Positions 26,763 to 45,505 of a stretch of 64,000 nucleotides of DNA are shown one piece after another. The notes beneath the pieces were generated by a model. It saw only the letters and a program-made list of their open reading frames with translations. It searched no databases and was not told the DNA's origin. The DNA is taken from the NCBI GenBank assembly GCA_947492825.1, contig CANLNT010000001.1, forward strand, positions 2,108,001 through 2,172,000, read 5' to 3'. The position numbers and the translations under genes were made by a program. The DNA comes from an uncultured Paracoccaceae bacterium (GTDB taxonomy: Bacteria; Pseudomonadota; Alphaproteobacteria; Rhodobacterales; Rhodobacteraceae). Positions within the stretch are counted from its first letter, which is position 1, and the number at the start of each line of letters is the position of its first letter.

Positions 26763-27070
26763 GGGGGGCGTCCTTTGGCAATCTTAAGGAATGTCTCGAC
26801 AGGGGGCGGCGTGATCCTTTCAACACCTTGACCCGGCAACGCTACGCGCGTGCCGGGACACTAATTCGTATGAAAAACCCATGTGTCATTGCCGCCGCTT
26901 ATAAGCAGCGCCGCGCCACGCCACAAGGGCACGTCCCCTGCTTCTTCTGGCCAAAATAATCCCCGCCGGAGGCTCCGACATCACCGCCGCCGCACCGGGT
27001 CGTCAAAAAGGCCGTTCACCCGCAAAACAGCACCAGAATGTCGTGCGCGCGACACGCGCGCCCCTTTTGG
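26763..27070. other. Upstream region of ileS with hairpin and dispersed repeat
   Basis: 308 bases between the extensin-family gene end (27071) and ileS start (26762), both on the minus strand. It contains a perfect 7 bp hairpin (CCCGGCA ... TGCCGGG, 26832-26857) about 70 bases before the ileS start, a palindrome GCTTATAAGC near 26898-26907 that may include the promoter -10, and one copy of the 44-nt dispersed repeat (26933-26976). No T-box-like elements were recognised. Confidence 0.55.
26933..26976 (-). repeat. 44-nt dispersed repeat, copy 1
   Basis: Read on the minus strand it begins GGAGCCTCCGGCGGGGATTA, continues through a TGGCCAGAAGAAGC core and ends GGGGAC. It matches the plus-strand copy at 44373-44416 at 40 of 44 positions with no gap. 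It lies between genes here. Confidence 0.75.
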
Positions 27071-27955
27071 TCACCGGCAATAAGATCCGCTGCGATAACG
27101 CGCGGTGTCAAAGTGAAAATGGTCCCGATGTGCTGCATTGGCATTTGGCCCAAGCACGGTCCCAAAAGGCCCGCAGGCCCCGCGCCACATGCGCCGCAAC
27201 GCCTCACCCTTCTGGCCACGGTTCCAATCCGTCAGTACGGTAATCTCTGACCCGGATTTCAGCCCGATCCCCGCAATATCAATCGCGCGGCCAAAAGCAT
27301 GTTCGCTCAACCGCCCCGTGGAGGACGAATTGCGGTTGCGGCAGGCATAATGCGACACCACCCGCAGTGACTGCATCCCGCCGCCAATCTGACCCACAGC
27401 AGGTTTCGCTGACTGCGCAACCCAGGCCTTCAGCGCGCTGGCAGTACGGCAATCAATCGTGGCACTGGGCGATAAGCGCACACCGGCAACCGAACGGACC
27501 CGCACGGCGCTTTCAATCCCACAAGCGCCGCGCCCCGGCACGCGGCCAATTGTTTCGCCCTGAATGGCGGGATCGCCGCACACCTGCCCACGCTGCCGCG
27601 CGATGCGCTGTTCAACCGCGCGCTGGGTGATTGCAGCAGGTCGCACCGTTGGGCGCAAGGACTGCGCAATGGCGTTGGGGCTAAAGGCAAACATGCCCAC
27701 CTCAGCCCGTTGCTGCGGCTGCGTGGTGGCCCCGCGCGCAAGATCAGGCCGCTCAAATGGGCGCGCGCTCGGGCGCATCTCGACCGTGGGATCACCTGGT
27801 GGCGGCGGAACCAGACTGTCGGGCCGGGTTTGCGGACGCAACGCTACGACCTCGGCTACATCAGGTGCCGGGCGCGCCTCGGGGCGCATTGCACTGGTCT
27901 GGGCCTGCGCGGTCGTGGCACAGATCACAAAGACTGCGACGCAAAGCGCCTTCAT
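27071..27955 (-). CDS. Extensin-family secreted protein
   Basis: 294 residues with a Sec signal peptide (cleavage near AQA/QT). A proline-rich N-terminal linker has four spaced RPxxRP motifs (24-29, 40-45, 61-66, 101-106). The C-terminal 170 residues match the bacterial extensin-like domain (VCGDPAIQGE ... SLRVVSHYACRN ... LSEHAFGRAIDIAGI ... HRDHFHFD), whose conserved His/Asp pattern resembles metal-dependent peptidoglycan peptidases. It probably acts in the cell envelope. Its ATG overlaps the tyrC stop (ATGA). Confidence 0.85.
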   Translation of the reverse strand: MKALCVAVFVICATTAQAQTSAMRPEARPAPDVAEVVALRPQTRPDSLVPPPPGDPTVEMRPSARPFERPDLARGATTQPQQRAEVGMFAFSPNAIAQSLRPTVRPAAITQRAVEQRIARQRGQVCGDPAIQGETIGRVPGRGACGIESAVRVRSVAGVRLSPSATIDCRTASALKAWVAQSAKPAVGQIGGGMQSLRVVSHYACRNRNSSSTGRLSEHAFGRAIDIAGIGLKSGSEITVLTDWNRGQKGEALRRMWRGACGPFGTVLGPNANAAHRDHFHFDTARYRSGSYCR

Positions 27956-28872
27956 GCCTTCTTGGCCGCCACGCGGCCAAAATCGGGCGCATCCGTATCC
28001 TGCCCCGCCTCGATAATGCCACGGCGGATTGCCCGCGTGCGGGTAAAATAGGCATGCAGGTGTTCGCCGTCACCTTTGCGGATGGCCCGCTGCAGGGCGA
28101 AAAGCTCTTCTGTGAACCGCCCCAAAATCTCCAGCGTCGCGTCCTTGTTGGTCAGAAACACATCACGCCACATCGTTGGGTCAGAGGCGGCGATGCGCGT
28201 AAAATCCCGAAAACCGGCAGCAGAGTAATTGATCACCTCACCATCGGTGATCCGGCTGAGATCATCGGCAACACCAACCATCGTATAGGCAATCAGATGC
28301 GGCGCATGGGACACCACAGCGCACACCAGATCATGATGTGCCGGCGCCATCGTGGCGATGTTGGACCCTAGCCCCTCCCAAAAAGCGCAGAGGTCACGCA
28401 CGGCATTAGGTTCCGCGCCTTCGCCCGGCACAATCAGGCACCAGCGATTGTCAAACAATTCTGCAAAGCCAGACCGCGGCCCCGAATGCTCTGTCCCGGC
28501 CATCGGGTGGCCACCGATGAATTGCACGTTCTGCGGCAAGTGAGGCAGCACCGCCTCAAACACCGCTGTCTTGACCGAGCCCACATCTGTGACCACCGCA
28601 CCCGGTTTCAGCACTGGCGCGATATCGGCCATGATGTCGCCCATCACACCAATGGGGACGCACAGCACAATCAGATCGGCGTCGCGCACGGCTTCTTGTG
28701 CCGTGTCATAAACGTCGCAAAGGTCCAATTCGCGTGCGATTGCGCGGGTCTCTGCGGTATGGGCCGTGCCGGTGATCTCCTTGGCCAACCCTGCGCGCTT
28801 GATCGCATGGCACATCGACGACGCGATCAGCCCCAGCCCGATCAGGGCGACCCGCTCATAGATTACGGCCAT
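27952..28872 (-). CDS. tyrC: Prephenate/cyclohexadienyl dehydrogenase
   Basis: 306 residues from the ATG at 28870-28872, which overlaps the hisC stop codon (TGATG); the frame extends 16 codons further only as shadow. VALIGLGLIASS (about 8-19) is the NAD(P)-binding fingerprint. FIGGHPMAGTEHSGP and the following NRWCLIVP are conserved in TyrA/TyrC proteins. It oxidatively decarboxylates prephenate or arogenate in tyrosine synthesis. The upstream aminotransferase can act in the same pathway. Confidence 0.88.
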   Translation of the reverse strand: MAVIYERVALIGLGLIASSMCHAIKRAGLAKEITGTAHTAETRAIARELDLCDVYDTAQEAVRDADLIVLCVPIGVMGDIMADIAPVLKPGAVVTDVGSVKTAVFEAVLPHLPQNVQFIGGHPMAGTEHSGPRSGFAELFDNRWCLIVPGEGAEPNAVRDLCAFWEGLGSNIATMAPAHHDLVCAVVSHAPHLIAYTMVGVADDLSRITDGEVINYSAAGFRDFTRIAASDPTMWRDVFLTNKDATLEILGRFTEELFALQRAIRKGDGEHLHAYFTRTRAIRRGIIEAGQDTDAPDFGRVAAKKA

Positions 28873-29957
28873 CAGCGCTGCCCTTTGAACTGCGCAATCC
28901 CGTGCACAACCCGACGACAAGCGCTTTCATCGCCCACGGTGATCCGCAGGCAATGGGGAAAGCCATAGCCCTTGGGATGGCGCACGATAATGCCCTGGCT
29001 CAGCAGGTATTCATTGCAACCCACGGCCTCTTCCTCATCCGCGAAACGCGCCAGAATGAAGTTAGCGGTTGAAGTATCGGACGGCACACCAATTTCGGCC
29101 AAGGCCGTGGCCAGCCATTCGCGCCAGCGGGCGTTTTCACGCTGGCACCGTTCGAAATAGGCCGTATCGCGCACAGCCGCCTCGGCCGCGGCCAGCGCAG
29201 CAGAGGACATGTTGAACGGCCCCCTGATCCGATTGAGCACGTCAATGATCGCCTGCGGGCCATAGCCCCAGCCGACACGCATCCCGCCCAGGCCATAGAT
29301 CTTCGAAAAGGTCCGGGTCATCACTACATTTTCGCGTTCATTGATCAGTGACAGTCCCGCATCAAACCCTTCGACATATTCGGCATAGGCACCGTCGAGA
29401 ACCAGAATAGCTTGCGGTGGCAGGCCATCGGCCAGCCGCGCCACCTCTGTCGGGCCAATCATCGTGCCTGTGGGATTGGCGGGATTGGCGATATAGACCA
29501 GCTTGGTCTTCTTGTTGCAGGCTGCAAGGATCGCATCCACATCCACCACGCGGTCGCGCTCTTTGACCTCGACCGGTGTGGCGCCAGCGGCAAGCGTCGA
29601 AATCCGGTACAGGGCAAAGCCGTGCTCGGTGTGGATCACTTCGTCCCCGGGCCCGGCAAAGGCCTGACACATAAAGTGCAAAATCTCGTCCGACCCCACA
29701 CCGATAATCACGCGTGCAGGGTCAAGCGACCATACTTCGCCGATTGCGGTACGCAGGGCCATATGATCGGTGGGCGGATAGCGGTGCAGATCGTGGGCCG
29801 CCCGCATGAACGCATCCTTGGCCTTGTCGGACGGCCCCGCGGGGTTTTCATTCGACGACAGCTTCAGGACGTTGGCAATACCGTCCACGTGGCTTGCGCC
29901 ACCCTGATAAAGGGCGATGTCCATGATCCCCGGTTGTGGCTTGATTGCAGCATTCAT
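28872..29957 (-). CDS. hisC: Histidinol-phosphate / aromatic aminotransferase
   Basis: 361 residues, PLP fold type [13 protein letters not shown] near the N-terminus, [13 protein letters not shown], and the PLP lysine in [20 protein letters not shown] are the HisC pattern. It transfers an amino group in histidine synthesis. The translational coupling to tyrC suggests it also, or mainly, makes phenylalanine/tyrosine, as seen for HisC-type enzymes elsewhere. Confidence 0.9.
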
Positions 29958-30014
29958 AGCGCCATTCCCCCCGCTTTCGCCCGTTCTAACGGGGTGTTTC
30001 CGGCATTGCCAGTG

Positions 30015-31430
30015 TCAGGTTGCCAGCACATTGCGGAATTGCCAGGGGTCACTTTCATCAATGTCTTCGGGGAAATGCTCCCACCGGTCCTGCAGCGGGG
30101 TCCAGTCGGTGTAATGCGCCTCGACCGGGCCAAGATAGGGGCGCTGCACCTCAAGGCACCTTGCGTGGTCCATCTCGTCGGTTTCCACGATCCCGGCTTG
30201 AGGGTTTTCCAACGCCCAGACCATGCCCGCCAGCACCGCCGAGGTCACCTGCAACCCCGTGGCATTCTGATAAGGCGCCAGCGTCTTGGTCTCTTCATTC
30301 GACAACCGGGACCCGAACCACAACGCATTCTTTTCGTGGCCATAAAGCAGCACGCCCAACTCATCAATACCGGTCACAATCTCGTCCACGTCCATGATTT
30401 CGTGCACTTTCTGCTGCTTACCGGACCCGAACATCTCGTGCAGGGACAGCACCGCGTCATCGGCGGGGTGATAGGCATAGTGGCAGGTCGGACGATAGTC
30501 AGGCGCACCCGCTGGGCCGACGGTATAATAGTCCGAAATGCTCACCGCCTCATTGTGGGTCACCAGAAACCCGAACTGCGGTCCGGGTGTGGGGCACCAG
30601 GTGTGAACACGGGTGATGGCGCCGGGGCGTTCGAACCAGATCGCCGCCTGACAGCCGACATCATAGCTATGCGCGGTTTCGGGCATCCACTTCTCGTGCG
30701 TGCCCCAACCCAGCTCTGCCGGTTGAAACCCTTCGGCAATGAACCCTTCGACCGACCACGTGTTGACAAATGTATCCCGCGGACGGGGCTTGGCCCTGGC
30801 TTGGGTATCGCGCTCGGCGATATGGACGCCCTTGACCCCAAGCTTTTGCATCAAAGCCGCCCAGCCGTCGCGTGTGTTGGGCACCGCATCACCGGTGTTC
30901 GTGTCCCGCGCAAGCGTCAACAGCGCTTCTTTCACGAACCAGCTGACCATGCCGGGATTGGCCCCGCAGCACGACACCGCCGTTGTGCCGCCGGGATTTG
31001 CGGCCTTTTCGTCGCGGACCTTTTGGCGCAGGGCATAATTGGTGCGGTCGGCGTTGTCGGGGGTTTCGAAATAAAAGCCCTCCCACGGCTCCACCACGGT
31101 ATCGATATAAAGCACACCAATCTCGCGGCAGAACTTCATCAGATCAAGCGACGAAGTATCGACCGACAGGTTCACACAGAACCCTTTGCCATCCGGGAAC
31201 AGCCCGCCAAGCACGTCGCGGTAATTGTCGCGGGTGATCGCGGTTTGAACGTGGCGGACACCTTCATCTGCCAAATGCGCAGCTGCCGCAGGATTGGGTT
31301 CAATCACCACCAGTTTGTCCGCGTCAATATCAAAATGCCGCTGGATCAAGGGCAAGGTTCCCTTACCGATCGACCCAAAGCCGATCATCACAATCGCGCC
31401 GTCAATACGGCCATAGTTAGGGTGTGCCAT
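30015..31430 (-). CDS. hss: Homospermidine synthase
   Basis: 471 residues, saccharopine-dehydrogenase-like fold. GAIVMIGFGSIGKGTLPLI (about 11-29) is the NAD-binding fingerprint, and VNLSVDTSSLDLMKFCRE, DTVVEPWEGFY and CCGANPGMVSWFVKEA are family blocks. The enzyme joins two putrescines to homospermidine with NAD as prosthetic group. It probably uses putrescine from the decarboxylase at 17169. It is a single-gene unit, with a terminator of the upstream gene in front of it. Confidence 0.9.
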   Translation of the reverse strand: MAHPNYGRIDGAIVMIGFGSIGKGTLPLIQRHFDIDADKLVVIEPNPAAAAHLADEGVRHVQTAITRDNYRDVLGGLFPDGKGFCVNLSVDTSSLDLMKFCREIGVLYIDTVVEPWEGFYFETPDNADRTNYALRQKVRDEKAANPGGTTAVSCCGANPGMVSWFVKEALLTLARDTNTGDAVPNTRDGWAALMQKLGVKGVHIAERDTQARAKPRPRDTFVNTWSVEGFIAEGFQPAELGWGTHEKWMPETAHSYDVGCQAAIWFERPGAITRVHTWCPTPGPQFGFLVTHNEAVSISDYYTVGPAGAPDYRPTCHYAYHPADDAVLSLHEMFGSGKQQKVHEIMDVDEIVTGIDELGVLLYGHEKNALWFGSRLSNEETKTLAPYQNATGLQVTSAVLAGMVWALENPQAGIVETDEMDHARCLEVQRPYLGPVEAHYTDWTPLQDRWEHFPEDIDESDPWQFRNVLAT

Positions 31431-31493
31431 GCGAACCTCCGGTTAGTGTGGCACGTGGTTAGCGCAAAGCGGCGCGCATTGAAAAGACACGAT

Positions 31494-31538
31494 CCAAAAA
31501 AGCAAAACCCCCGCCGCAGGGACAGGGGTCTTGTTTTG
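31494..31538 (-). terminator. Terminator of the VPVPA-tail gene
   Basis: On the minus strand: CAAGACCCC, a 12-base loop, GGGGGTTTTG and then a run of Ts. It follows the stop at 31556 and separates that gene from hss. Confidence 0.7.
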
Positions 31539-31555
31539 ATATGTCAGATTGTGTC

Positions 31556-32323
31556 TTAGGCTGCAGGCTTGCGCCGCCGTCGCGCAAAGCCCAGCCCGGC
31601 CAGCGCGCTGCCAAGCATCAGGATCGAGGCCGGCACTGGCACTTCCTGGATCGTGAAATCACTGAAAACCTGCAGTCCATCGACAGAGAACCCGTCGTTC
31701 TTGCGGTTCTTGCTGTCGTCTCTCTGAAAATTCTCAAGCTCGATCCGGGCCGAGGTTACATCCGCGCCCAAATCAATCGTCACCAGCTTAATGTTGCCAT
31801 TTGCAAGCTTCGGGTCCGTGCCCCGTATCCGCATTTCAAAGCTGTCGGTTCCAGTCGTGATCCGCAGGAAGCCGCCCACGTCATTGGCATCCATCAAGCT
31901 GAAGGTCACGTAATCGAACGCAGCGCCACTCATCAGTGACACGTCCCAGCCGATGCCGAAAGTGTCGTTGCTGTCGAGAAACCACTCACCACCTGCAGGT
32001 GTGGTATTGGACCGGCCAAAGACCGTGCCGTTACGCAACGCCACTTCGGTACCTGTATTGCCCGGCAATCCAGTCACGGTGCCACCGGTCCCGGTACCGC
32101 CGAGCGATTCAAAATTGCCCACCGCCGTCGAGATCGACGCGCCCACTTCGCCCTCGCCATTGGTCACACCGAGGGCTTCAAAGTCTTCGGTAGCAGCAGC
32201 GCCGACACCAAAGGTGGGATTGTAGGATGCGGCATCGAAAATCGACACGTTAATCGTTGCAGCATTTGCCATCATCGGCAAAACGGCCATCGTCGTCGCA
32301 ATCATGAGGCCCTTGATACGCAC
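31556..32323 (-). CDS. Secreted protein with VPVPA/PEP-CTERM-type sorting tail
   Basis: 255 residues if started at the GTG at 32321-32323, which has GGAG 6 bases before it; an ATG at 32303-32305 is the alternative. The signal peptide ends near MANA/AT. The mature part is a beta-rich domain without recognised catalytic motif (EDFEALGVTNGEGEVG, later a jelly-roll-like stretch). The C-terminus VPVPASILMLGSALAGLGF followed by ARRRRK is an exosortase-type sorting signal. Probably a surface or matrix protein. Terminator downstream. Confidence 0.75.
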   Translation of the reverse strand: MRIKGLMIATTMAVLPMMANAATINVSIFDAASYNPTFGVGAAATEDFEALGVTNGEGEVGASISTAVGNFESLGGTGTGGTVTGLPGNTGTEVALRNGTVFGRSNTTPAGGEWFLDSNDTFGIGWDVSLMSGAAFDYVTFSLMDANDVGGFLRITTGTDSFEMRIRGTDPKLANGNIKLVTIDLGADVTSARIELENFQRDDSKNRKNDGFSVDGLQVFSDFTIQEVPVPASILMLGSALAGLGFARRRRKPAA

Positions 32324-32345
32324 GGCACTCTCCAACAGAAAAAGG

Positions 32346-32361
32346 TTTAACTTGGGTTAAA
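32346..32361. promoter_or_regulatory. Palindrome TTTAAC-N4-GTTAAA upstream of secreted protein
   Basis: A perfect 6+4+6 inverted repeat 23 bases before the GTG start of the VPVPA-tail gene. The TTAAC half-sites resemble CtrA-type boxes, but the spacing is 6, not 7. A second palindrome TTTCCG-TAA-CGGAAA lies at 32414-32428. Confidence 0.4.
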
Positions 32362-32508
32362 ATATGTCAAAGGCTGGGCGAGGCAAAGGGGAAACGCCTC
32401 ACTTTTTCCCCATTTTCCGTAACGGAAATAAAAAGACCTGATTGTCCGCTCCCGCGAAACAATTAACCTCAAATTTCCATGCGTTTCGGCGGAATAGGTC
32501 CGTCCTGG

Positions 32509-33267
32509 CTACTTGCGCTCGATTCCCACGGCGGCCACTTCGCCGTCATGCAGCAGGATTTCCATCCAAACCGGGCTGGATGTGAAGCGTTCGTAACCAG
32601 TGATGAAGGTCGTGTTGCGGGCGAGCGCATCGATTCTGCGCCCGCAGGGCTTGCCAAATCCGGCCCGGCAAAAGCTGGCTTTGATTGCTTCGTAAGCGTT
32701 GTCGACCTGCGTGTAGGGCCGCCGCGACTGGGCGGTTTCATAGCGCACGACCTCGTGCGTGCCGACATCCCCGGTCAACACCAGTGCGGCCGTGAATTGC
32801 CGGGCGCAGCGATCGTTGAAACCGGTGATGTAATAGGGGCGCGGCGCTGTCGTGTTTGGGGCGGTGTCATAGATCGTATAGCCTGACACGCTGGCGATTT
32901 TAGCCCCCATCTCGCGGGTGGACAGACCACAGGTGGTCCCGACCTCGCCAAAGACTTGATTGGTCAGCGGTGGGATATTGTCTTCCGGCGCGTCAGCCAC
33001 GTCGCCTGGCGCTTCATTGCCCATCAACCGGCCCAGCAGACCGGGGGACGGCGCTTCGGCTTCTTCGGCTGGTGCGCTATCTGCAGCCCCCCCAAAAAGG
33101 CCCGCAAAGAACCCGGGCGCGTCATCGGGGGCCGCAATGGCAACGCCATCCTCACCCACATCGACGGTATCCAGCGTCGGAACTTCGTCCAGCGTGTCCT
33201 GCACACCAAAGCCCGCGCACCCTGCAAGCAGGGCCGCAACCGGCAAGGACATCAGGACAAAACGCAT
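32509..33267 (-). CDS. Conserved lipoprotein, unknown function
   Basis: 252 residues from the ATG at 33265-33267 (GGAGG 6 bases upstream; a GTG one codon earlier is possible). A lipoprotein signal ends LLAGC. An acidic, proline/alanine-rich linker (about 30-95) leads to a C-terminal domain with four or more cysteines (TTCGLST, DRCARQF, SFCRAGFGKPCGRR) that could form disulfides. No family recognised; likely a periplasm-facing lipoprotein found in Rhodobacteraceae. Confidence 0.6.
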   Translation of the reverse strand: MRFVLMSLPVAALLAGCAGFGVQDTLDEVPTLDTVDVGEDGVAIAAPDDAPGFFAGLFGGAADSAPAEEAEAPSPGLLGRLMGNEAPGDVADAPEDNIPPLTNQVFGEVGTTCGLSTREMGAKIASVSGYTIYDTAPNTTAPRPYYITGFNDRCARQFTAALVLTGDVGTHEVVRYETAQSRRPYTQVDNAYEAIKASFCRAGFGKPCGRRIDALARNTTFITGYERFTSSPVWMEILLHDGEVAAVGIERK

Positions 33268-33336
33268 CACGCGCCTCCGCTCAAACAGACGATGACATAG
33301 CGCGCGATGTGGGAGAGGTCTAGCGCAGGGCGCAGT

Positions 33337-36837
<3,501 letters not shown>

Positions 36838-36883
36838 GCAGCGACATTATGTGCCGGGTTTCCGCGCCGCCAGTTGATAATAC

Positions 36884-36899
36884 TTAGCACATCTGCTAA
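36884..36899. promoter_or_regulatory. ArsR operator candidate TTAGCA-N4-TGCTAA
   Basis: Perfect 6+4+6 inverted repeat 31 bases before the ArsR start and 46 bases before dnaE. The position over the likely promoter of the ArsR-SRPBCC pair fits autorepression. A half-site GCTAAG follows at about 36917-36922. Confidence 0.5.
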
Positions 36900-36930
36900 C
36901 TTTATGCGAAACACCCGCTAAGCCCCTGAC

Positions 36931-37257
36931 ATGTCGACACATCTGAACACATTTTTTGCTGCAATGGCCGACCCGACCCGCCGCGCGGTGATCGAACAAC
37001 TGACCGCGGGCCGGGCCACCGTCAGCGAACTGGCCGCGCAACATGACATGGCCCTTCCCAGTTTCATGCGTCATCTCAAGGTGTTAGAGGACGCAGGTCT
37101 GGTCCGTTCGGTCAAAAAGGGCCGCGTGCGGACCTGCGTGATCGAACCCGGACCATTGATCGAGGCACAGGGTTGGCTGGCATGGCAACGCGCAGTCTGG
37201 GAAGGCCGCAATGACAGGCTGACGGCACTTGCCGAAGGATTGGAGGACCCATCATGA
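36931..37257 (+). CDS. ArsR-family transcriptional regulator
   Basis: 108 residues. FFAAMADPTRRAVIEQLTAGRATVSELAAQHDMALPSFMRHLKVLEDAGLVRSVKKGR is a complete winged-helix ArsR/SdpR-type domain. No metal-binding cysteine motif (CxC) is present, so this is likely the SdpR-like class. The stop overlaps the start of the SRPBCC gene (ATGA), the usual pairing of such regulators with an AHSA1-type protein. Confidence 0.88.
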   Translation: MSTHLNTFFAAMADPTRRAVIEQLTAGRATVSELAAQHDMALPSFMRHLKVLEDAGLVRSVKKGRVRTCVIEPGPLIEAQGWLAWQRAVWEGRNDRLTALAEGLEDPS

Positions 37258-37733
37258 CCAACGCAACCACATTGACATTCACCCGCCATATCAAGGCCAG
37301 CCGCGCCGCAATCTGGCGCTGCTGGACGGAACCCGCATTGCTGAAAAAGTGGTTTGCCCCGGCACCTGTCAGCACAACCGAGGCCGAGATGGACGCGCGA
37401 CCGGGAGGTATCTTTCGCACGGTGATGGAGGTTCCGGAACATGGCACTATGGCCGGCAATCCCGGTTGCGTGCTTGTCGCCGATGCGGAGCAACGGTTGG
37501 TCTGGACCAACGCGCTTGGGCCAGAATTCTGCCCCAACGCGATGGGCGACGGCCCCATGGATTTTGCCTTTACCGCCGAAATTCTGATCACACCAGCAGC
37601 AGGCGGAAGCACCTACACCGTTGTCGTTCAACACGCGACCGATGCCGCGCGCGAAGTGCATGAAAACATGGGGTTCTTTGAAGGTTGGGGGGCTGCCGCG
37701 GATCAGATGGCCGAACTTGCGGCATCACTTTGA
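37254..37733 (+). CDS. SRPBCC family protein (AHSA1-type)
   Basis: 159 residues. FTRHIKASRAAIWRCWTEPALLKKWFAP at the start and a C-terminal helix (FFEGWGAAADQMAELAASL) are the START-like/AHSA1 fold, which binds hydrophobic ligands. It is coupled to the ArsR gene by ATGA overlap. Ligand unknown. A 13-base tandem duplication follows its stop. Confidence 0.85.
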   Translation: MTNATTLTFTRHIKASRAAIWRCWTEPALLKKWFAPAPVSTTEAEMDARPGGIFRTVMEVPEHGTMAGNPGCVLVADAEQRLVWTNALGPEFCPNAMGDGPMDFAFTAEILITPAAGGSTYTVVVQHATDAAREVHENMGFFEGWGAAADQMAELAASL

Positions 37734-37755
37734 CCGGCGCTGTTATCCGGCGCTG

Positions 37756-38136
37756 TCATACCAAAGGCCGATCCTGATGAGGCTGCATAACCTCAATTCT
37801 GTTGCCAAAAGGGTCGGCGATATAGAACCGCCGCCAACCGGGCAACGATGAGACTTCGCCGCCTTCCAACGCAGCGCGCGCCTGTTCCAAATCATCCACA
37901 ACAAGCGCCGGATGCGCCTTGCGCGCAGGAGTGAACGGTTCCTCGACCCCCAAATGCAAGTTGACCCCTGCACCAGCAAACCAGCAGCCCCCGCGCCCGG
38001 CCAGGGCGGCGGGCTTTGCTACCTCGCGCAATCCAAGCCGTCCGCAATAAAACGCTCGCGCCACATCTTCCTGCCCAGGCGGCATCGCCAACTGCACATG
38101 ATCAAGGCCGGTAATGGAAAAACTGCTCATATTCAT
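37756..38136 (-). CDS. VOC (glyoxalase/bleomycin resistance) family protein
   Basis: 126 residues, two beta-alpha-beta3 modules. GLDHVQLAMPPGQEDVARAFY (first metal-ligand histidine), VNLHLGVEE and the final GNRIEVMQ (glutamate) are the VOC metal site residues. The reaction is not predictable. It is convergent with the ArsR-SRPBCC pair. Confidence 0.85.
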   Translation of the reverse strand: MNMSSFSITGLDHVQLAMPPGQEDVARAFYCGRLGLREVAKPAALAGRGGCWFAGAGVNLHLGVEEPFTPARKAHPALVVDDLEQARAALEGGEVSSLPGWRRFYIADPFGNRIEVMQPHQDRPLV

Positions 38137-38284
38137 AGCTTAACCCCGCAAACATCGGGCGGAAAGGCTTGCTATTCGCGCATTTGCCCGCTTTTCTGGC
38201 AATCGACCGGGGGGTTCTTGTCTACGCCGCATCGACATCGGACCGCACACCCCAGCACGATCGGTAAGGCGGCTTGAGTTTCAC

Positions 38285-39628
38285 ATGGAGACGACGTTTC
38301 TTCTGAACGGAGAGACCGTGACCGCCCAAACCGGTCCGACAACCACACTGCTGGATTGGTTGCGCGACGGGCAAGGCCTGTGCGGCACCAAGGAAGGCTG
38401 CAACGAAGGTGACTGCGGCGCCTGCACCGTCATGATCACTGATACCGACGGCGCCCGTGCGCTGAACGCTTGCATTCTGTTTGTACCGCAATTGGCAGGC
38501 AAGGCGGCGCGCACGGTCGAAGGCATCGCCGCCCCTGATGGCACCCTGCACCCAGTGCAACAGGCGATGGTGGATCACCACGGATCGCAGTGCGGATTTT
38601 GCACACCGGGGTTTGTGGTCAGCATGGCGACCGCGCATTTCAATGGCCGCGCCGATCACGACGATCAGCTTGCGGGCAACCTGTGCCGCTGCACCGGCTA
38701 TGCGCCCATCGTGCGCGCAGCAGAAGCAGCGGCGGACGCCAAAGTGCCCGCGCATATGACTGATGCGCCGGATGATACGGCCGGGAAGATGTCGCTGGAC
38801 GCCTTTGCCGACTGGTACATGGAAAATCCCGATGCGACCCTGATCGCCGGGGCCACGGACGTGGGCCTTTGGGTCACCAAGCAGTTCCGCGATCTAGGCG
38901 ATGTGCAATTCCTGTCGCGCGTCCAAGGGCTGCGCCACAACGTGGCAACGCCGCAGACTTTCCACATCGGCGCAATGGTCCCGATGACAGAGGTGCTGGA
39001 CACCGTGGCCGCCGACTATCCCAGCTATGCTGCGATGATCCGCCGCTATGGGTCGGTCCAGGTCCGCAACGCGGCGACCATCGGCGGCAATATCGCCAAC
39101 GGCTCGCCCATCGGGGACAACCCGCCAGTGCTGATCGCTTTGGACGCCACGCTGCATCTGCGCTGCGGCGACAAGCCACGTGATCTGGCGATTGCTGATT
39201 TCTTTGTGGATTACGGCAAACAAGACCGCGCCCCGGGGGAATTTGTGACCGGGGTAACGATCCCGCGCGGACAGAATGCGCTGCGGGTCTACAAACTGTC
39301 GAAACGGTTCGATCAGGATATCTCTGCCGTGTGTGGGGCGTTGAATGTGACGGTTGCTGATGGTGTTGTGCAATCTGCCCGCATCGCCTTTGGCGGGATG
39401 GCAGGCATTCCCAAGCGGGCCTCTTCGGTCGAATCCTCCCTCATCGGCCAACCCTGGACGCAGGCAACAATCACGGTCGCGGCAGAGGCGATGGCGCAGG
39501 ATTTTACACCGCTCAGCGATATGCGTGCAAGTGCTGCCTACCGGTTGCAGGCCGCGCAAAACATGCTGCACCGCTATTTTGCGGACCTATCAGGTGTTGC
39601 GGTGCAGGTGCGCGAGGTCTCGGCATGA
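38285..39628 (+). CDS. xdhA: Xanthine dehydrogenase small subunit XdhA
   Basis: 447 residues, fusing the iron-sulphur and FAD domains as in bacterial XdhA. The plant-type 2Fe-2S site uses C39, C44, C47 and C63 ([12 protein letters not shown]); the second cluster is in CGFCTPG and LCRCTGY. The FAD domain contains [12 protein letters not shown] and [18 protein letters not shown]. It passes electrons from the molybdenum subunit to NAD. First gene of the xdh-ABC operon; stop overlaps xdhB. Confidence 0.93.
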
Positions 39629-42036
39629 GCGTCGGAAAACCGCTGGCTCATGATGCCGCCGCCCTGCATGTGACGGGGGCTGCACGTTACACCGATGACA
39701 TTCCCATGCCCGCCGGTGCACTGCATCTGGCCTTTGGCACCAGCGCTGTGGCCCACGGCAAGATCACTGGGATTGACCTGGCATCCGTGCGCGCAGCGCC
39801 CGGCGTTCGCGCCGTGTTGACGGCCCATGACCTGCCCTATGCCAATGACGTCAGCCCGTCTTCCCATGATGAGCCGCTTTTGGCGACAGATATGGTGCAC
39901 TACCTTGGCCAACCAATTTTTCTGGTGGTGGCCGAGAGCCACCTTGCCGCCCGCCACGCCGCACGTTTGGGCCAGATCGACATTGCGCCGGAAACCCCAA
40001 TCCTAACTGTGGATGAAGCGCTCGCAGCCAACGCACGCTTCGAAGACGGCCCGCGCATCTGGACCAAAGGCGACGTTGATGCAGCCTTGTCAGCTGCGCC
40101 GCACCGCCTGCGAGGCCGGATTGAGATGGGCGGGCAAGAACATTTCTATCTAGAAGGCCAAGCCGCCGCCGCCTTGCCGCAAGAGGGCGGCGATATGGTT
40201 GTGCATAGCTCCACCCAGCACCCAACTGAAATTCAGCACAAAGTGGCCGAGGCGCTTGGCGTGCCGATGCATGGCGTCCGAGTCGAAACCCGGCGTATGG
40301 GCGGCGGCTTTGGCGGCAAGGAAAGCCAGGGCAACGCGCTGGCCGTGGCTTGCGCCGTCGCCGCACGATTGACCGGGCGGCCCTGCAAGATGCGGTATGA
40401 CCGCGACGACGATATGATGATCACCGGCAAGCGCCACGATTTTCGTATCGACTATGACGTCGGGTTCGACGATGCGGGCCGTGTGTTGGGTGTTGACTTC
40501 ACCCAAGCCACCCGCTGTGGCTGGGCGATGGACCTGTCCTTGCCCGTGGCCGACCGCGCAATGCTGCATGCCGACAACGCTTATAATCTGCCTAGCTGCC
40601 GGATCACGTCGCACCGACTGCGGACAAACACCCAAAGTGCCACCGCCTATCGCGGGTTTGGCGGACCGCAGGGGGTTTTGGGGATCGAGCGGGTGATGGA
40701 CGAAGTGGCCCATGCCACCGGGTTGGACCCGGTCAAGGTGCGGCAGGCGAACTACTATCCGGCGATGGTGGATGGGGGGCCAGCCCCGTCGCCATTGACG
40801 CATGGACCAATGGCGCATCAAACGGCGACCCCCCGGGATATTTCTGGCCAGAAGAAGACAGGACGCGGCACCCGGTTTGGCGGGGCGCATTCACCAAAGG
40901 CCACGGTGGCGACCACGCCCTATGGCATGGAAGTGACCGACTTCATCCTGCACGAGATGACAGAGGCGCTGTTGGTGACAGCCGACTACGCCAAGCGGTG
41001 TGACGCGATTGCGAGTTGGAACGCGCAGAACGACATCCTCAAAAAGGGCATTGGGTTCAGCCCGGTCAAATTCGGCATTTCTTTTACATTGACCCATCTC
41101 AATCAGGCGGGCGCGTTGGTGCATGTCTATCAGGACGGCTCTGTCCATATGAACCACGGCGGCACCGAGATGGGCCAGGGCCTGTTCCAGAAGGTGGCGC
41201 AGGTCGCCGCGGCGCGCTTTGGGATCGACGTGGCCGCGGTCAAGATCTCTGCCACGGACACTGCAAAGGTGCCCAATACCTCGGCCACCGCGGCCTCTTC
41301 GGGGTCGGATTTGAACGGCATGGCGGTTGCGGCGGCCTGCGACACGATCCGCGACCGGATCGCTGGCTGCCTTGCTAAGCTGCATCAGTCACGGGTTGAG
41401 GAAATCCAGTTTGCCGATGGCATGGTGCGGGTGGGTGTGACCCGGATGACCTTTGCTGAAGCCGCAAAGCTGGCCTATGAAAATCGTGTCAGCCTGTCTG
41501 CAACCGGATTCTATAAGACCCCCGACCTGCAATGGGACCGGATCAAGGGTCAGGGGCGTCCATTCTTCTACTTTGCCCAAGGCGCTGCCCTGACTGAAGT
41601 AGTAATCGACACATTGACCGGCGAAAACCGCATTCTGCGCGCCGACATTCTGCATGACGCCGGGGCCTCACTTAATCCTGCGCTGGATATCGGCCAGGTC
41701 GAGGGCGGCTATGTCCAAGGTGCCGGATGGCTCACCACCGAAGAGCTTGTTTGGGACGAAACGGGCCGTCTGAGGACCCATGCGCCGTCGACCTACAAGA
41801 TCCCCGCCTGCGGCGACCGGCCCGACATCTTCAATGTGGCACTTTGGGACGCCCCCAACCCTGCACAGACGATTTATCGGTCCAAGGCAGTGGGGGAGCC
41901 GCCGTTCATGCTGGGGATTTCGGCCCATCTGGCACTGTCGGATGCTGTCGCGGCCTGTGGCGACAGCTATCCCGATCTGCAGGCCCCCGCCACGGCGGAA
42001 GAAGTCCTTGCTGCGATTGCAAGAGCGCGGCAATGA
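39625..42036 (+). CDS. xdhB: Xanthine dehydrogenase molybdenum subunit XdhB
   Basis: 803 residues. Molybdopterin-binding blocks are present: [43 protein letters not shown] and the C-terminal [15 protein letters not shown] with the catalytic glutamate. It hydroxylates hypoxanthine and xanthine towards urate. Oddity: between NYYPA and TTPYG, adjacent or nearly so in relatives, there is an in-frame insertion of about 49 residues (381-429; 40765-40911) rich in G, P, T and carrying a copy of the dispersed repeat core. ATGA overlaps on both sides tie it to xdhA and xdhC. Confidence 0.93.
40834..40862 (+). repeat. Dispersed repeat core inside xdhB
   Basis: CGGGATATTTCTGGCCAGAA followed by GAAGACAGG matches the core of the repeat copies at 26933 and 44373, without their GGAGCCTC left end. 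It is in frame within xdhB and encodes [10 protein letters not shown], in the middle of a family-atypical insertion (residues 381-429). Confidence 0.6.
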
Positions 42037-42779
42037 GCGCGATCCGCATCACCATCACCCGCACGGTCGGGTCCGCCCCGCGCGATGCTGGCACGCAAAT
42101 GCTGGTCCGGGCGGATCGAACCACCGGCACCATTGGCGGCGGCGCGCTGGAATGGGACGCAATGGCCCGTGCCCGGCAGATGTTGCGAGATGGTCAAACC
42201 CGACATACGGAAACCGTGGCCCTTGGGCCCGCGTTGGGCCAGTGCTGCGGCGGATCAGTCTCACTGCGGTATGAGGTGGCGATAGAACTGACAGATGCAC
42301 CGCGCAAGCCGCTATGGATTTACGGCGCAGGCCATGTGGGCCGGGCGCTGGTCGGCGTCATGGCTCCGCTGCCCGACTGGGCGATCACATGGGTGGATAC
42401 CGCCGCAGACCGGTTCCCTGACCTGCCCCAAGGTGTGACGCAACTGGTTGCGGTCGACCCTGCTCGCAGTGTGGTCCATGCGCCGCGTGATGCCCATCAC
42501 CTGATCTTGACCTACAGCCATCAGATCGACCTTGATCTGTGCCACGCCCTCTTGTCGCACGGCTTTGCCTCTGCGGGCCTGATCGGGTCGGCCACCAAAT
42601 GGGCGCGGTTCAAATCGCGGCTGTCTGCATTGGGCCACGCGCAAGCAGATATCCTGCGCATCGCCTGCCCGATTGGCGACCCGGCAGTGGGCAAACACCC
42701 GCGAGCCCTTGCTATCGGTGTGGCAATGGCGATGCTGACGGGTGGGAAACGGGCAATGTCGGGGGACAAGGCGGGATGA
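42033..42779 (+). CDS. xdhC: XdhC, xanthine dehydrogenase maturation protein
   Basis: 248 residues from the ATG overlapping the xdhB stop. VGSAPRDAGTQMLV, GTIGGGALEW and the CCGGSVSL motif belong to the N-terminal XdhC/CoxI domain; the C-terminal half is a Rossmann-like domain with WIYGAGHVGRALVG and GLIGSATKWARFKSRL. XdhC binds and sulphurates the molybdenum cofactor and inserts it into XdhB. Coupled by ATGA to the ABC ATPase gene downstream. Confidence 0.92.
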   Translation: MSAIRITITRTVGSAPRDAGTQMLVRADRTTGTIGGGALEWDAMARARQMLRDGQTRHTETVALGPALGQCCGGSVSLRYEVAIELTDAPRKPLWIYGAGHVGRALVGVMAPLPDWAITWVDTAADRFPDLPQGVTQLVAVDPARSVVHAPRDAHHLILTYSHQIDLDLCHALLSHGFASAGLIGSATKWARFKSRLSALGHAQADILRIACPIGDPAVGKHPRALAIGVAMAMLTGGKRAMSGDKAG

Positions 42780-44299
42780 GCGACGTGTTGCTGGATTTGC
42801 AAGGCCTGACCAAGGCCTACCCCGGGGTGATTGCCAACAAGGACGTCTCTTTTCAGATTGGGCGCGGCGAGATTCATGCTTTGCTGGGCGAAAATGGTGC
42901 AGGCAAATCTACATTGGTCAAGACCATCTATGGGCTGGTGAAGCCCGACAGCGGTGCCATGTCCATGAACGGTACAGGCTTTACTCCGGCAGAGCCGCGT
43001 GCGGCCCGTGCAGCTGGTGTCGCGATGGTTTTTCAGCATTTTTCGCTTTTTGATGCGCTCAGCGTTGCAGAGAATATCGCCCTTGGCATGGAAAGCCCGC
43101 CCCGGATGCAAGAACTGGCCGCCCGCGTGCGGGCTGTTTCGGATCAATACGGGCTTCCGCTCGACCCCGACCGGACCGTAGGTGATCTGTCTGCGGGCGA
43201 ACGGCAGCGGGTCGAGATCATTCGGTGCCTGCTGCAAGACCCCAAGCTGTTAATTATGGACGAACCCACCAGCGTGCTGACCCCGCAAGAGGTCGATATC
43301 CTGTTTGAAACCCTGCGCAAATTGCGCAGCGAGGGTACCTCGATCCTCTATATATCGCACAAGCTGGAAGAGATCCGCAGCTTGTGTGAAGCCGCGACGA
43401 TCTTGCGATTAGGCGAAGTTGTCGGGTCCTGCGATCCTCGCGCCACTTCGGCCCGTGACATGGCAGAATTGATGGTGGGTCAGGTGTTGCATGTGCCTGA
43501 AAAGGCAAAAAAACCACAAGGGGACGTGGTGCTGGAACTGACCGCACTCAGCGCGCCTGCGCCGCATCAGTTTGGCACCGCATTGCGCGATATCTCGATC
43601 AATGTGCAGGCGGGCGAAGTTCTGGGCATCGGTGGTGTTGCGGGTAACGGTCAGGACGAGTTGGTCGCAGCGTTGTCGGGCGAAATGAAGACCAAAACCG
43701 GCATGATCCGGTTTGCCGGGCAGGACATGGGACTGTTGCCGGTCAACGTCCGGCGCGGCATGGGACTTTTGGCAGCACCCGAGGAACGCATGGGCCATGC
43801 AGCAGCACCCGATATGAGCCTGACTGAGAACGCGCTGATGACAGGTGCGGTGCGCAAAGGGTTGGACCAGCGCGGTTTTATCCGTTGGGACCGGGCCAAG
43901 GCCTTTGCGGCAGAGGTGATTGCCGCATTTGACGTGCGCACACCCAGCACCGAAAACGCGGCGCGGTCATTGTCGGGCGGAAACTTGCAGAAATTCGTCA
44001 TCGGGCGCGAGATCATGCAGGACCCGCGCGTGCTGGTGATCAATCAGCCGACATGGGGCGTCGATGCCTCTGCCGCTGCGGCTATCCGGCAAGCGCTGCT
44101 GGATCTGGCCGCCAAAGGGTCGGCGGTGATCTGCATCAGCCAGGACCTTGATGAGTTGATGGAGATCTCTGACCGGTTTTGTGCGCTGAACGAGGGGCGT
44201 TTGTCACCACCCCGCCCCGCGCAAGGGCTGAGCGTGGAAGAGATTGGGCTGATGCTGGGTGGTGCCCATGATATGGAGGTGGCGCATGTTGATGGCTGA
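42776..44299 (+). CDS. BMP-type ABC importer, ATP-binding protein (two NBDs)
   Basis: 507 residues from the ATG overlapping the xdhC stop. The first nucleotide-binding domain is intact: Walker A GENGAGKST (38-46), signature DLSAGERQ, Walker B LLIMDEPTS. The second is degenerate, with GVAGNGQDEL in place of Walker A and VLVINQPTWGVD in place of the DEP Walker B; SLSGGNLQK is kept. This is the usual arrangement in ribose/nucleoside-type importers (RbsA, YufO). Linkage to xdhABC suggests purine nucleosides or bases as cargo. Confidence 0.9.
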   Translation: MSDVLLDLQGLTKAYPGVIANKDVSFQIGRGEIHALLGENGAGKSTLVKTIYGLVKPDSGAMSMNGTGFTPAEPRAARAAGVAMVFQHFSLFDALSVAENIALGMESPPRMQELAARVRAVSDQYGLPLDPDRTVGDLSAGERQRVEIIRCLLQDPKLLIMDEPTSVLTPQEVDILFETLRKLRSEGTSILYISHKLEEIRSLCEAATILRLGEVVGSCDPRATSARDMAELMVGQVLHVPEKAKKPQGDVVLELTALSAPAPHQFGTALRDISINVQAGEVLGIGGVAGNGQDELVAALSGEMKTKTGMIRFAGQDMGLLPVNVRRGMGLLAAPEERMGHAAAPDMSLTENALMTGAVRKGLDQRGFIRWDRAKAFAAEVIAAFDVRTPSTENAARSLSGGNLQKFVIGREIMQDPRVLVINQPTWGVDASAAAAIRQALLDLAAKGSAVICISQDLDELMEISDRFCALNEGRLSPPRPAQGLSVEEIGLMLGGAHDMEVAHVDG

Positions 44300-44372
44300 G
44301 ATTGCGCGCAAGCGCGCCGCATGCTGCGGGCGGGCCGCCCCGTTGCGAGCGGCGGTTCCGGTTGTTGGCTCA

Positions 44373-44416
44373 GGAGCCTCTGGCGGGGATTCTTCTGGCC
44401 AGAAGAAGCTGGGGAC
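44373..44416 (+). repeat. 44-nt dispersed repeat, copy 2
   Basis: Begins GGAGCCTCTGGCGGGGATTC, holds the TGGCCAGAAGAAGC core and ends GGGGAC, 6 bases before the permease ATG. It is 40/44 identical to the minus-strand copy at 26933-26976. It occupies the only sizeable gap (44300-44422) inside the xdh-ABC operon. Confidence 0.75.
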
Positions 44417-44422
44417 TCGGCC

Positions 44423-45505
44423 ATGATCGCCCTCGAGAAACGCCCGCAACCCAGTCAGCGCTGGATCTTTCTGGCACCACTGCTGGCGGTCATTCTGACG
44501 ATGATTTTTGGCGGCATTCTGTTTGCCGCACTTGGCAAAAACCCATTGGTGGTGATCCGCACGATTTTCTATGACCCGCTGTTTTCGCAGAATGCCTGGT
44601 TCTATCGTCCCGAGATTCTGATTAAGGGCGGCCCCCTTGTGCTGCTGGCCATCGGGCTGAGTTTCGGGTTCCGCGCGGGCATCTGGAACATCGGGGCCGA
44701 GGGGCAGTACATCGTCGGGGCGATCTGCGGGGCGGCAGCGGGACTGGCGCTTTATCCTGCCGAGACGCGGTTAATCTTTCCGCTGATGGTGCTGGCCGGC
44801 GCGCTGGGTGGCTGGGCCTGGGCGATGATCCCTGCGGTATTGCGGGTGCGGTTTGGCACCAATGAAATCCTTGTCAGCCTGATGCTGGTCTATGTGGCCG
44901 AACAATTGCTGGCGACCATGGCGCTGGGGGCCATGCGCAACCCTGAAGGCATGGGATTTCCCGGCAGCCGCAACCTGAGCCAATGGCCTGCGGCCGCCAA
45001 CAAAGAGCTGATCGCAGGTAGCGGCATGCACTGGGGCGTGGTCGCGGCCTTTATCGCGGTGATCTTTGCCTATGTGGTACTGGCGCGGCACAGGTTTGGA
45101 TTTCAGGTTCGGCTATCTGGTCAGGCCCCGCGTGCGGCGCGCTTTGCAGGCGTCAATCCCGGTCAGATGATCCTGATCTGTATGGGGATTTCCGGCGCCT
45201 TGGCGGGACTCGCAGGGCTCTTTGAGGTTGCCGGCCCCTCGGGTCAGATCAGTATTGATTTCAACGTGGGCTATGGCTTTACCGCGATTATCGTGGCGTT
45301 TCTGGGCCGGTTGCATCCGGTTGGCATCCTGCTGGCGGGCGGGCTGATGGCGCTCACTTACGTGGGCGGCGGCATTGCGCAAAGCCAGCTGGGCCTGCCC
45401 GTGGCCGCGATCCAGCTGCTGCAGGGGATGCTGCTGTTTTTCCTGTTGGCGGTGGATGTGCTGACGAACTACCGGCTTCGGGTCGGCGTGGGAGAGGCGG
45501 CATGA
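44423..45505 (+). CDS. BMP-type ABC importer, permease 1
   Basis: 360 residues from the ATG at 44423. The frame is open from 44321, but that extension (arginine-, cysteine- and tryptophan-rich) is the translated dispersed repeat and its surroundings rather than permease sequence. About nine transmembrane helices; NIGAEGQYIVGAI and FLGRLHPVGILLAGGLMALTYVGG are typical of the branched-chain/BPD_transp_2 permeases of nucleoside importers (YufP/NupB). Stop overlaps the small membrane protein gene. Confidence 0.88.
   Translation: MIALEKRPQPSQRWIFLAPLLAVILTMIFGGILFAALGKNPLVVIRTIFYDPLFSQNAWFYRPEILIKGGPLVLLAIGLSFGFRAGIWNIGAEGQYIVGAICGAAAGLALYPAETRLIFPLMVLAGALGGWAWAMIPAVLRVRFGTNEILVSLMLVYVAEQLLATMALGAMRNPEGMGFPGSRNLSQWPAAANKELIAGSGMHWGVVAAFIAVIFAYVVLARHRFGFQVRLSGQAPRAARFAGVNPGQMILICMGISGALAGLAGLFEVAGPSGQISIDFNVGYGFTAIIVAFLGRLHPVGILLAGGLMALTYVGGGIAQSQLGLPVAAIQLLQGMLLFFLLAVDVLTNYRLRVGVGEAA

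Follow-up and report, generated by a model that had tools for sequence, protein, structure and literature searches.

Rickettsia palindromic elements (RPE) are long palindromes of the Rickettsiales that are inserted in frame in protein genes. Repetitive extragenic palindromic (REP) sequences generally lie between tandem and convergent genes, downstream of coding regions (available part of PMC3733652), and dialects have been described for the DNA uptake sequences (DUS) of the Neisseriaceae (available part of PMC3630211). Here we report a dispersed repeat of the Rhodobacteraceae that resembles each of these in some respects. It was noticed in a stretch of 64,000 nt from an uncultured Paracoccaceae bacterium (hereafter the window, meaning the whole stretch that was analysed), which corresponds to positions 2108001-2172000 of contig C1 in genome G000 (4.0 Mb in 10 contigs). 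The first-pass annotation of the window had described two 44-nt copies and a shorter third core, and had compared them with REP or RPE elements. We find a polar element in high copy number that ends in a genome-typical tag, and this tag changes in concert and in place between related genomes. The genome-specific tag, the free spacer in relatives and the concerted change are not visible from one window.

A polar, bipartite repeat in high copy number

The 12-mer GGCCAGAAGAAG at the core of the repeat has 63 exact matches in G000 versus 2 for the reversed control, far more than chance would give. Two of them are ordinary matches in coding sequence and were set aside; the remaining 61, all of which have upstream context in common, wholly or partly, were aligned (alignment A1). 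A sequence-only profile built from these 61 copies gave 96 matches in G000 at E ≤ 1, and the 87 at E ≤ 0.006 were used, a count that may be a lower bound, 150 of 2268 candidates having been scored. The true number is therefore far higher than the two to three copies first described. The reported ungapped agreement of copies 1 and 3 of the window (Table 1) at 40 of 44 positions was reproduced by alignment. The third site, annotated as a short core at 40834-40862, is real as well but belongs to a full copy with another type of hairpin (copy 2).

Copies read, in order, as a hairpin slot, CCTCCGGCGG or a C-run, a purine triple, TATTT, a short spacer and a tag ending in GAAG. Two upstream forms can be told apart. 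Type A has a G-run, a short loop and a C-run, often with a second small hairpin, and then a C-run; type B has GCCTCCGGCGG, and some of its copies carry an A/T-rich perfect hairpin ahead. Both types converge on GGGAT(A/T)ATTTT-GGCCAGAAGAAG, followed by a weaker tail, e.g. CAGGGGAC. The repeat is about 45-60 bp long, with a spacer of 2-4 nt and a genome-typical box of 6-8 nt that ends in GAAG. A similar A/T-rich hairpin (GATTTTTCG..CGAAAAATC) precedes the core at loci L206, L208, L211, L220, L287, L338 and L119, and its recurrence in several genomes implies that the hairpin slot has recurrent forms too.

The description as a palindromic element does not hold, because the copies are polar: any hairpin stands on the 5′ side of the core, whose partial palindrome is not conserved. 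Perfectly paired stems of ≥ 7 bp precede the core in 45% of 83 copies; the figure is 5% on the downstream side and 6% for dinucleotide shuffles. The proposed palindromic centre TTCTGGCCAGAA occurs in copies with TTCT ahead of GGCC, but most of the 61 aligned copies have TTTTTGGCCAG or TTATTTTGGCCAG instead. Inverted pairs with their GAAG ends face to face, reminiscent of bacterial interspersed mosaic elements (BIMEs), were observed in G000 (C1:1211566/1211608 and C2:304673/304829), in G152 (C30:43230/43280 and C146:21292/21342) and at L204 and L325.

Genome-typical tags over a nearly free spacer

The dominant tag is nearly uniform in many genomes. It is GGCCAGAAGAAG in G000, GGCCAAAAGAAG in its congener G004, GACCAGAAGAAG with the triple AAG in G001 and (C/T)CAAAGAAAG in G002. 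Tags were read from part of the genomes only, among the matches listed, where AACAGAAGAAG was present in 26/26 copies of G162, CCCAAAGAAG in 24/26 of G148 and GAACAATGAAG in 7/7 of G154. Types A and B carry the dialect of their genome alike in G000, G001, G006 and G010. Two sets coexist in G152, one combining the triple GGA with GCAAGATGAAG (29/29) and the other GAG with GCRCARAGAAG (62/62). A sub-family with the tag CCATTTGGAAG was seen alongside other tags in G007 (C1:1559744, 3223302 and 3250041) and at L275.

Spacer positions 1-2 after TATTT hold about 0.4 bit of information in G152, 0.5 bit in G162 and 0.1-0.3 bit in G148. The triple and tag boxes are thus linked over a nearly free spacer, as they would be in a bipartite recognition site.

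Concerted change at fixed sites

The congeners G000 and G004 differ at a diagnostic base, which is G in 82/83 copies of G000 and A in 45/52 copies of G004. Among the 52 G004 elements in the loci compared, 37 map to a compared G000 locus, and 32 of these loci hold an element. At the 32 orthologous pairs the base reads G/A (G000/G004) in 26 cases, G/G in four, A/G in one and G/T in one. The 33 nt upstream are more similar between orthologs (0.71) than between non-orthologs (0.48; p = 7e-13), the ortholog being the best upstream match in only 17/32 pairs. Some of the G004 loci were retrieved with a profile that favours the G000 dialect, and this bias runs counter to the result.

The clearest sign that the pressure acts on the DNA, and not on a protein or a 3′ untranslated region (UTR), comes from one gene, xdhB, in which the tag has changed. 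The xdhB copy is in frame in G000, G001 and G004, and the element is absent from the site in G002. The smallest insert (G004) runs from the G-run through GAAG and measures about 57 bp. Its peptide is DISGQKK in G000 and G004 and SISDQKK in G001, because the DNA dialect of G001 occupies that copy. A protein-coding explanation was rejected, since the xdhB tag tracks the DNA dialect of the genome despite the amino acid change; moreover, by eye, the reading frame used by xdhB contains a stop codon in some pattern strings. The insert lies at about residue 384, and with 10 of 12 other oxidoreductase models the best stretch ends shortly ahead of it, at residues 376-380.

Within the species, genome G169 gave 83 profile matches at E ≤ 0.01. 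At least approximately, 61 of the 69 copies on G000 C1 lie at matching G169 sites, a pairing with some mis-pairs that result from too narrow a range of coordinate sums. With so many sites in common, recent hopping was rejected as the source of the uniformity. Five copies were examined for differing or missing scores: four differ in the core (1075154, 1176348, 1953479 and window copy 3 at 44373) and one, C1:92956, is absent from G169. At the 29 best-scoring loci (30 taken, one without orthologous match), a choice that favours conservation, 1/667 core positions was changed versus 119/7287 other intergenic positions. From these comparisons the family looks old, with slow gain and loss and some copies drifting.

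Spread across the Rhodobacteraceae

With each genus represented by one genome, the type B pattern, CCTCCGGCGG-N3-TATTT-N10-GAAG, was found in 88 of the 149 family genomes, at 0 to 91 copies per genome and with no match to the reversed control. The letters CCTCCGGCGG, TATTT and GAAG are fixed in this pattern by construction, and the informative positions are the triple and the ten between TATTT and GAAG. None of 285 genomes from other alphaproteobacterial families matched; of the four genomes of the own family in the same outgroup scan, only G000 did. A scan of named genomes returned at least 119 stretches. The 80 listed are mostly from Rhodobacterales, with Ruegeria, Shimia, Paracoccus, Rhodovulum, Thioclava, Roseovarius and Octadecabacter among the genera; the list also has one metagenome-assembled genome (MAG) labelled Hyphomicrobiales, one MAG labelled Sphingomonadales and four labelled only Alphaproteobacteria.

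G003, of the same genus as G000, gave no profile match and no element in about 120 kb inspected. Lack of a profile match need not mean absence, as profile R1 also missed G002, which holds elements. The phage collection contained no match to the 44-mer, and the plasmid collection gave four weak matches, in Phaeobacter, Tritonibacter, Parasedimentitalea and Leisingera.

Placement relative to genes and replication forks

Gene context was determined for 83 of the 87 G000 copies, the four without locus sequence being dropped, with a home-made gene caller whose starts and ends are approximate. In element orientation, 33 copies are L+R+, 21 L+R-, 19 L-R- and 4 L-R+, and 6 lie inside genes. Hence, 73 of 77 intergenic copies follow the end of at least one gene; in the background, 94/310 gaps are divergent. 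In the named loci, counted without copies near locus ends, 69/70 intergenic copies are downstream of a gene (background divergent gaps 67/299), and the GAAG end lies at most 8 nt from the end of a converging gene in 23/52 such cases. In six G000 tags (C1:1943719, 339323, 487856 and 810344; C2:876363 and 667293) AGCC replaces GGCC, and according to the home-made gene calls the converging gene on the opposite strand takes its stop codon from this AGCC tag.

The replichores of G000 were defined from GC skew, and GGGNAGGG is consistent with them. By our own sum, 69 of the 87 copies are oriented with and 18 against the fork; for the 83 copies with gene context the ratio is 66:17, compared with 369:305 for genes. 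The bias is seen per class, with 27:6 for L+R+, 17:4 for L+R- and 14:5 for L-R- (p = 0.06 for the last). In G013, 13 copies are with the fork, 2 against and 4 undetermined, two of the 13 lying near a stretch in which skew and GGGNAGGG disagree. G007 has 10 with, 9 against and 3 undetermined, and in G148, where 26 of 42 copies were listed, the ratio is 13:13. Fork orientation is not general: it was seen in two (G000 and G013) of the four genomes tested.

In 0.73 Mb sampled from G000, the most skewed leading-strand octamer is GGGCAGGG (81:12), with GGGNAGGG at 101:18; we take both to be FtsK-orienting polar sequences (KOPS). GGGCAGGG is likely the KOPS of G000 and marks the C1 replichore switch near 1.36-1.40 Mb. 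In the same stretches GAAGAAG shows no strand skew (90:88). An identity of the repeat with KOPS was therefore rejected, given this unskewed word and the presence of a separate KOPS-like GGGNAGGG.

Search for partner enzymes and earlier descriptions

The transposase domain Y1_Tnp of REP-associated tyrosine transposases (RAYT; PF01797) had no match in G000, the search within this family being limited to that genome and 5 of 14 control genomes being positive; a RAYT/IS200-type enzyme was thus discarded for G000. The suggested kinship with REP elements fails on this one point as far as REP proper is concerned. RVT_1 domains occur in 41/149 genomes of the family, and none was found in the high-copy genomes G152, G108, G148 and G162, so that a reverse transcriptase was dismissed as a general partner. 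G000 itself has one RVT_1 domain (C1:550472-551101) in an open frame of 440 aa; the repeat copy at C1:562435 lies about 11 kb away.

The first-pass annotation had recognised no described family, and none was found in Rfam or in the literature searched. Rfam gave no match in the window at gathering scores and, for eight loci at E ≤ 0.5, one chance-level match to a long non-coding RNA (lncRNA). The literature, searched without most subscription papers and all preprints, yielded no string match and no relevant description. By word counts, Rhodobacter, Paracoccus, Ruegeria and Roseobacter have no mention in the main texts, as far as available, of PMC3733652 and PMC12306157.

Discussion

The likeness to a small dispersed element of the REP or RPE kind stands in so far as the repeat has a high copy number, is mostly intergenic, has one in-frame gene insertion and occurs in many Rhodobacteraceae. 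With REPs and their paired forms (REPINs) it shares the short length, the high copy number (87 here), the partial ability to form hairpins, the tandem and convergent placement downstream of coding regions, and the occupation of orthologous sites with some copies changed. It differs from them in being polar instead of palindromic, in its bipartite tag with spacer that is genome-typical and changes in place, in the missing Y1_Tnp match in G000 and in that, by inspection, no tetranucleotide of the GTAG/CGTC type was seen beside the hairpins of the listed copies. The xdhB copy, an insertion kept in frame in a protein gene, is the one documented case of likeness to RPE; however, only 6/83 copies lie inside genes by the home-made calls, the repeat is not a long palindrome, and the bacterial order is another. 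We file it as a variant of an interspersed hairpin repeat that is not a member of REP or RPE, set apart from the latter by description. One motif per family with lineage-typical dialects recalls DUS, which promote the uptake of tagged DNA by way of a pilin receptor; copy number, length, hairpin and fixed sites separate the repeat from them. Fork orientation in G000 and G013 recalls KOPS, words with a strong genome-wide skew towards the leading strand; the repeat departs from them through the unskewed word GAAGAAG, the lack of bias in G007 and G148, and the separate GGGNAGGG. An intrinsic terminator has a GC-rich stem with a T-run directly behind it at the end of a transcript; in the repeat, about half of the copies have a long stem, and GGGAT-ATTTTT comes after it.

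We tentatively favour, well short of certainty, a REP/RPE-like non-autonomous repeat of the Rhodobacteraceae whose tag would be read as DNA by a trans-acting factor and whose copies would be retuned by selection. Copies would have arisen by insertion of a unit reaching roughly from the hairpin G-run to GAAG. The bipartite tag would be recognised as DNA by a putative sequence-specific factor; as the specificity of this factor drifts, selection would retune the copies, so that the tag shifts in concert and in place, and copies that lose recognition would decay. More doubtful is the wider proposal of a family-wide, rapidly diversifying DNA recognition code, in which most Rhodobacteraceae lineages would have their own reader-tag pair or pairs and a putative protein or RNA-guided reader would maintain, or directly rewrite, up to about 100 copies when its specificity changes.

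Several observations weigh against retuning by a reader. Neither a reader nor a mobilising enzyme was found (no Y1_Tnp in G000, no reverse transcriptase in the four high-copy genomes), and the genes beside clustered copies, read from their translations, are of metabolic or housekeeping type. A target-site duplication was not demonstrated. A perfectly paired stem of ≥ 7 bp occurs in only 45% of the copies. The spacer of G000 is mostly TT, so the argument from a free spacer rests on other genomes. The six copies of G093 are all unlike, G007, G014, G059 and G134 mix tags, similar tags reappear in different genera, and some copies vary within the species, so that not all are maintained. Retuning some 90 sites, finally, needs effective weak selection at each.

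Concerted in-place change at dispersed sites could alternatively stem from templated rewriting, in which the tag would spread by copying, either through ectopic gene conversion or from ssDNA or cDNA that anneals to the copies and serves as template, preferentially on the lagging-strand template. Some copies are highly identical over 40-60 nt, which is enough for some recombination, and the fork orientation in G000 (66:17) and G013 (13:2, 4 undetermined) would be consistent with a process on the lagging strand. Yet G007 and G148 show no such orientation, G152, G108, G148 and G162 lack a reverse transcriptase match, and the retention of upstream orthologous sequence while the tag changes would require very short tracts. 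In G152, G162 and G148 the spacer is nearly random between linked boxes; copying would be expected to homogenise it too. The nearly free spacer, together with the kept upstream sequence, favours selection driven by a reader over plain copying, and we consider templated rewriting unlikely. The hairpin and T-rich stretch might instead serve at the 3′ ends of transcripts, as an intrinsic terminator or mRNA stabiliser, or as a protein roadblock between convergent genes with the tag as its site. Such a role, in our view improbable, would account for the excess of copies downstream of genes (73/77 in G000 and 69/70 in the named loci, with 22-30% of background gaps divergent), for the enrichment of long stems on the upstream side (45% versus 5% downstream and 6% in shuffles) and for the GAAG ends within 8 nt of converging gene ends (23/52). 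But REPs are placed alike (available part of PMC3733652) and tolerance of insertion explains the placement equally; copies occur in both orientations to genes, including sense tandem and inside a gene, a species-typical tag is superfluous in an intrinsic terminator, and long stems are missing from about half of the copies.

A self-DNA tag for DNA uptake would agree with a family-wide motif in lineage-typical dialects, as in the DUS (available part of PMC3630211). We regard it as very unlikely, because about 90 copies per 4 Mb are too sparse for a short donor fragment, positions are fixed and not scattered in genes, and the hairpin and bipartite structure extend over about 45 bp. Hardly credible is a polar chromosome-maintenance motif, KOPS- or Chi-like, read at or behind the fork: the G000 orientation (69:18; 66:17 with gene context) is present in each main gene class, but the unbiased G007 (10:9) and G148 (13:13) largely refute it, the most skewed G000 octamer is GGGCAGGG whereas GAAGAAG is at 90:88, and there is only about one copy per 45 kb.

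Dozens of fixed sites with a tag that changes in concert, different tags in many genera and two linked sets within one genome together look like the natural trace of a DNA reader whose specificity has shifted repeatedly. Once found, such a reader would yield many specificities, each paired with its targets, and make the persistence of interspersed repeats without a RAYT transposase testable. It would likewise account for a feature that is widespread in an ecologically major family and that the literature searched does not describe.

Features of the window

Table 1. Copies of the repeat and the xdhB host gene in the window.
Feature	Position	Strand	Remarks
Copy 1, type B	26933..26976	-	tag 12-mer at 26941-26952; layout GGAG-CCTCCGGCGG-GGA-TTATTTT-GGCCAGAAGAAG-CAGGGGAC
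Copy 2, type A hairpin (GGGGGGCCAGCCCC ... GACCCCCC) plus core	40774..40857	+	in frame within xdhB; tag 12-mer at 40846-40857
Copy 3, type B	44373..44416	+	tag 12-mer at 44397-44408
xdhB, xanthine dehydrogenase molybdopterin-binding subunit	39625..42036	+	TIGR02965, 1188.6 bits vs cut-off 849.5; hosts copy 2

The site of copy 1 holds an element in G001 (L076) and G004 (L168), each with its own tag, and the element is absent from it in G002 (L241). Beside this copy the gene caller missed the open reading frame (ORF) 27071-27955, so the distance to the gene is wrong there. Copy 3 is flanked by two ORFs on the plus strand, one at 42539-44299 and one with its start ATG at 44423; its orthologous sites are filled in G004 (L164), G001 (L260:15539) and G002 (L254:9649), with their own tags in each. 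Next to copy 1, the stretch 27026-27064 has matches of 35-39 nt at 89-90% in G003 and G001 and is possibly a second, unrelated repeat.

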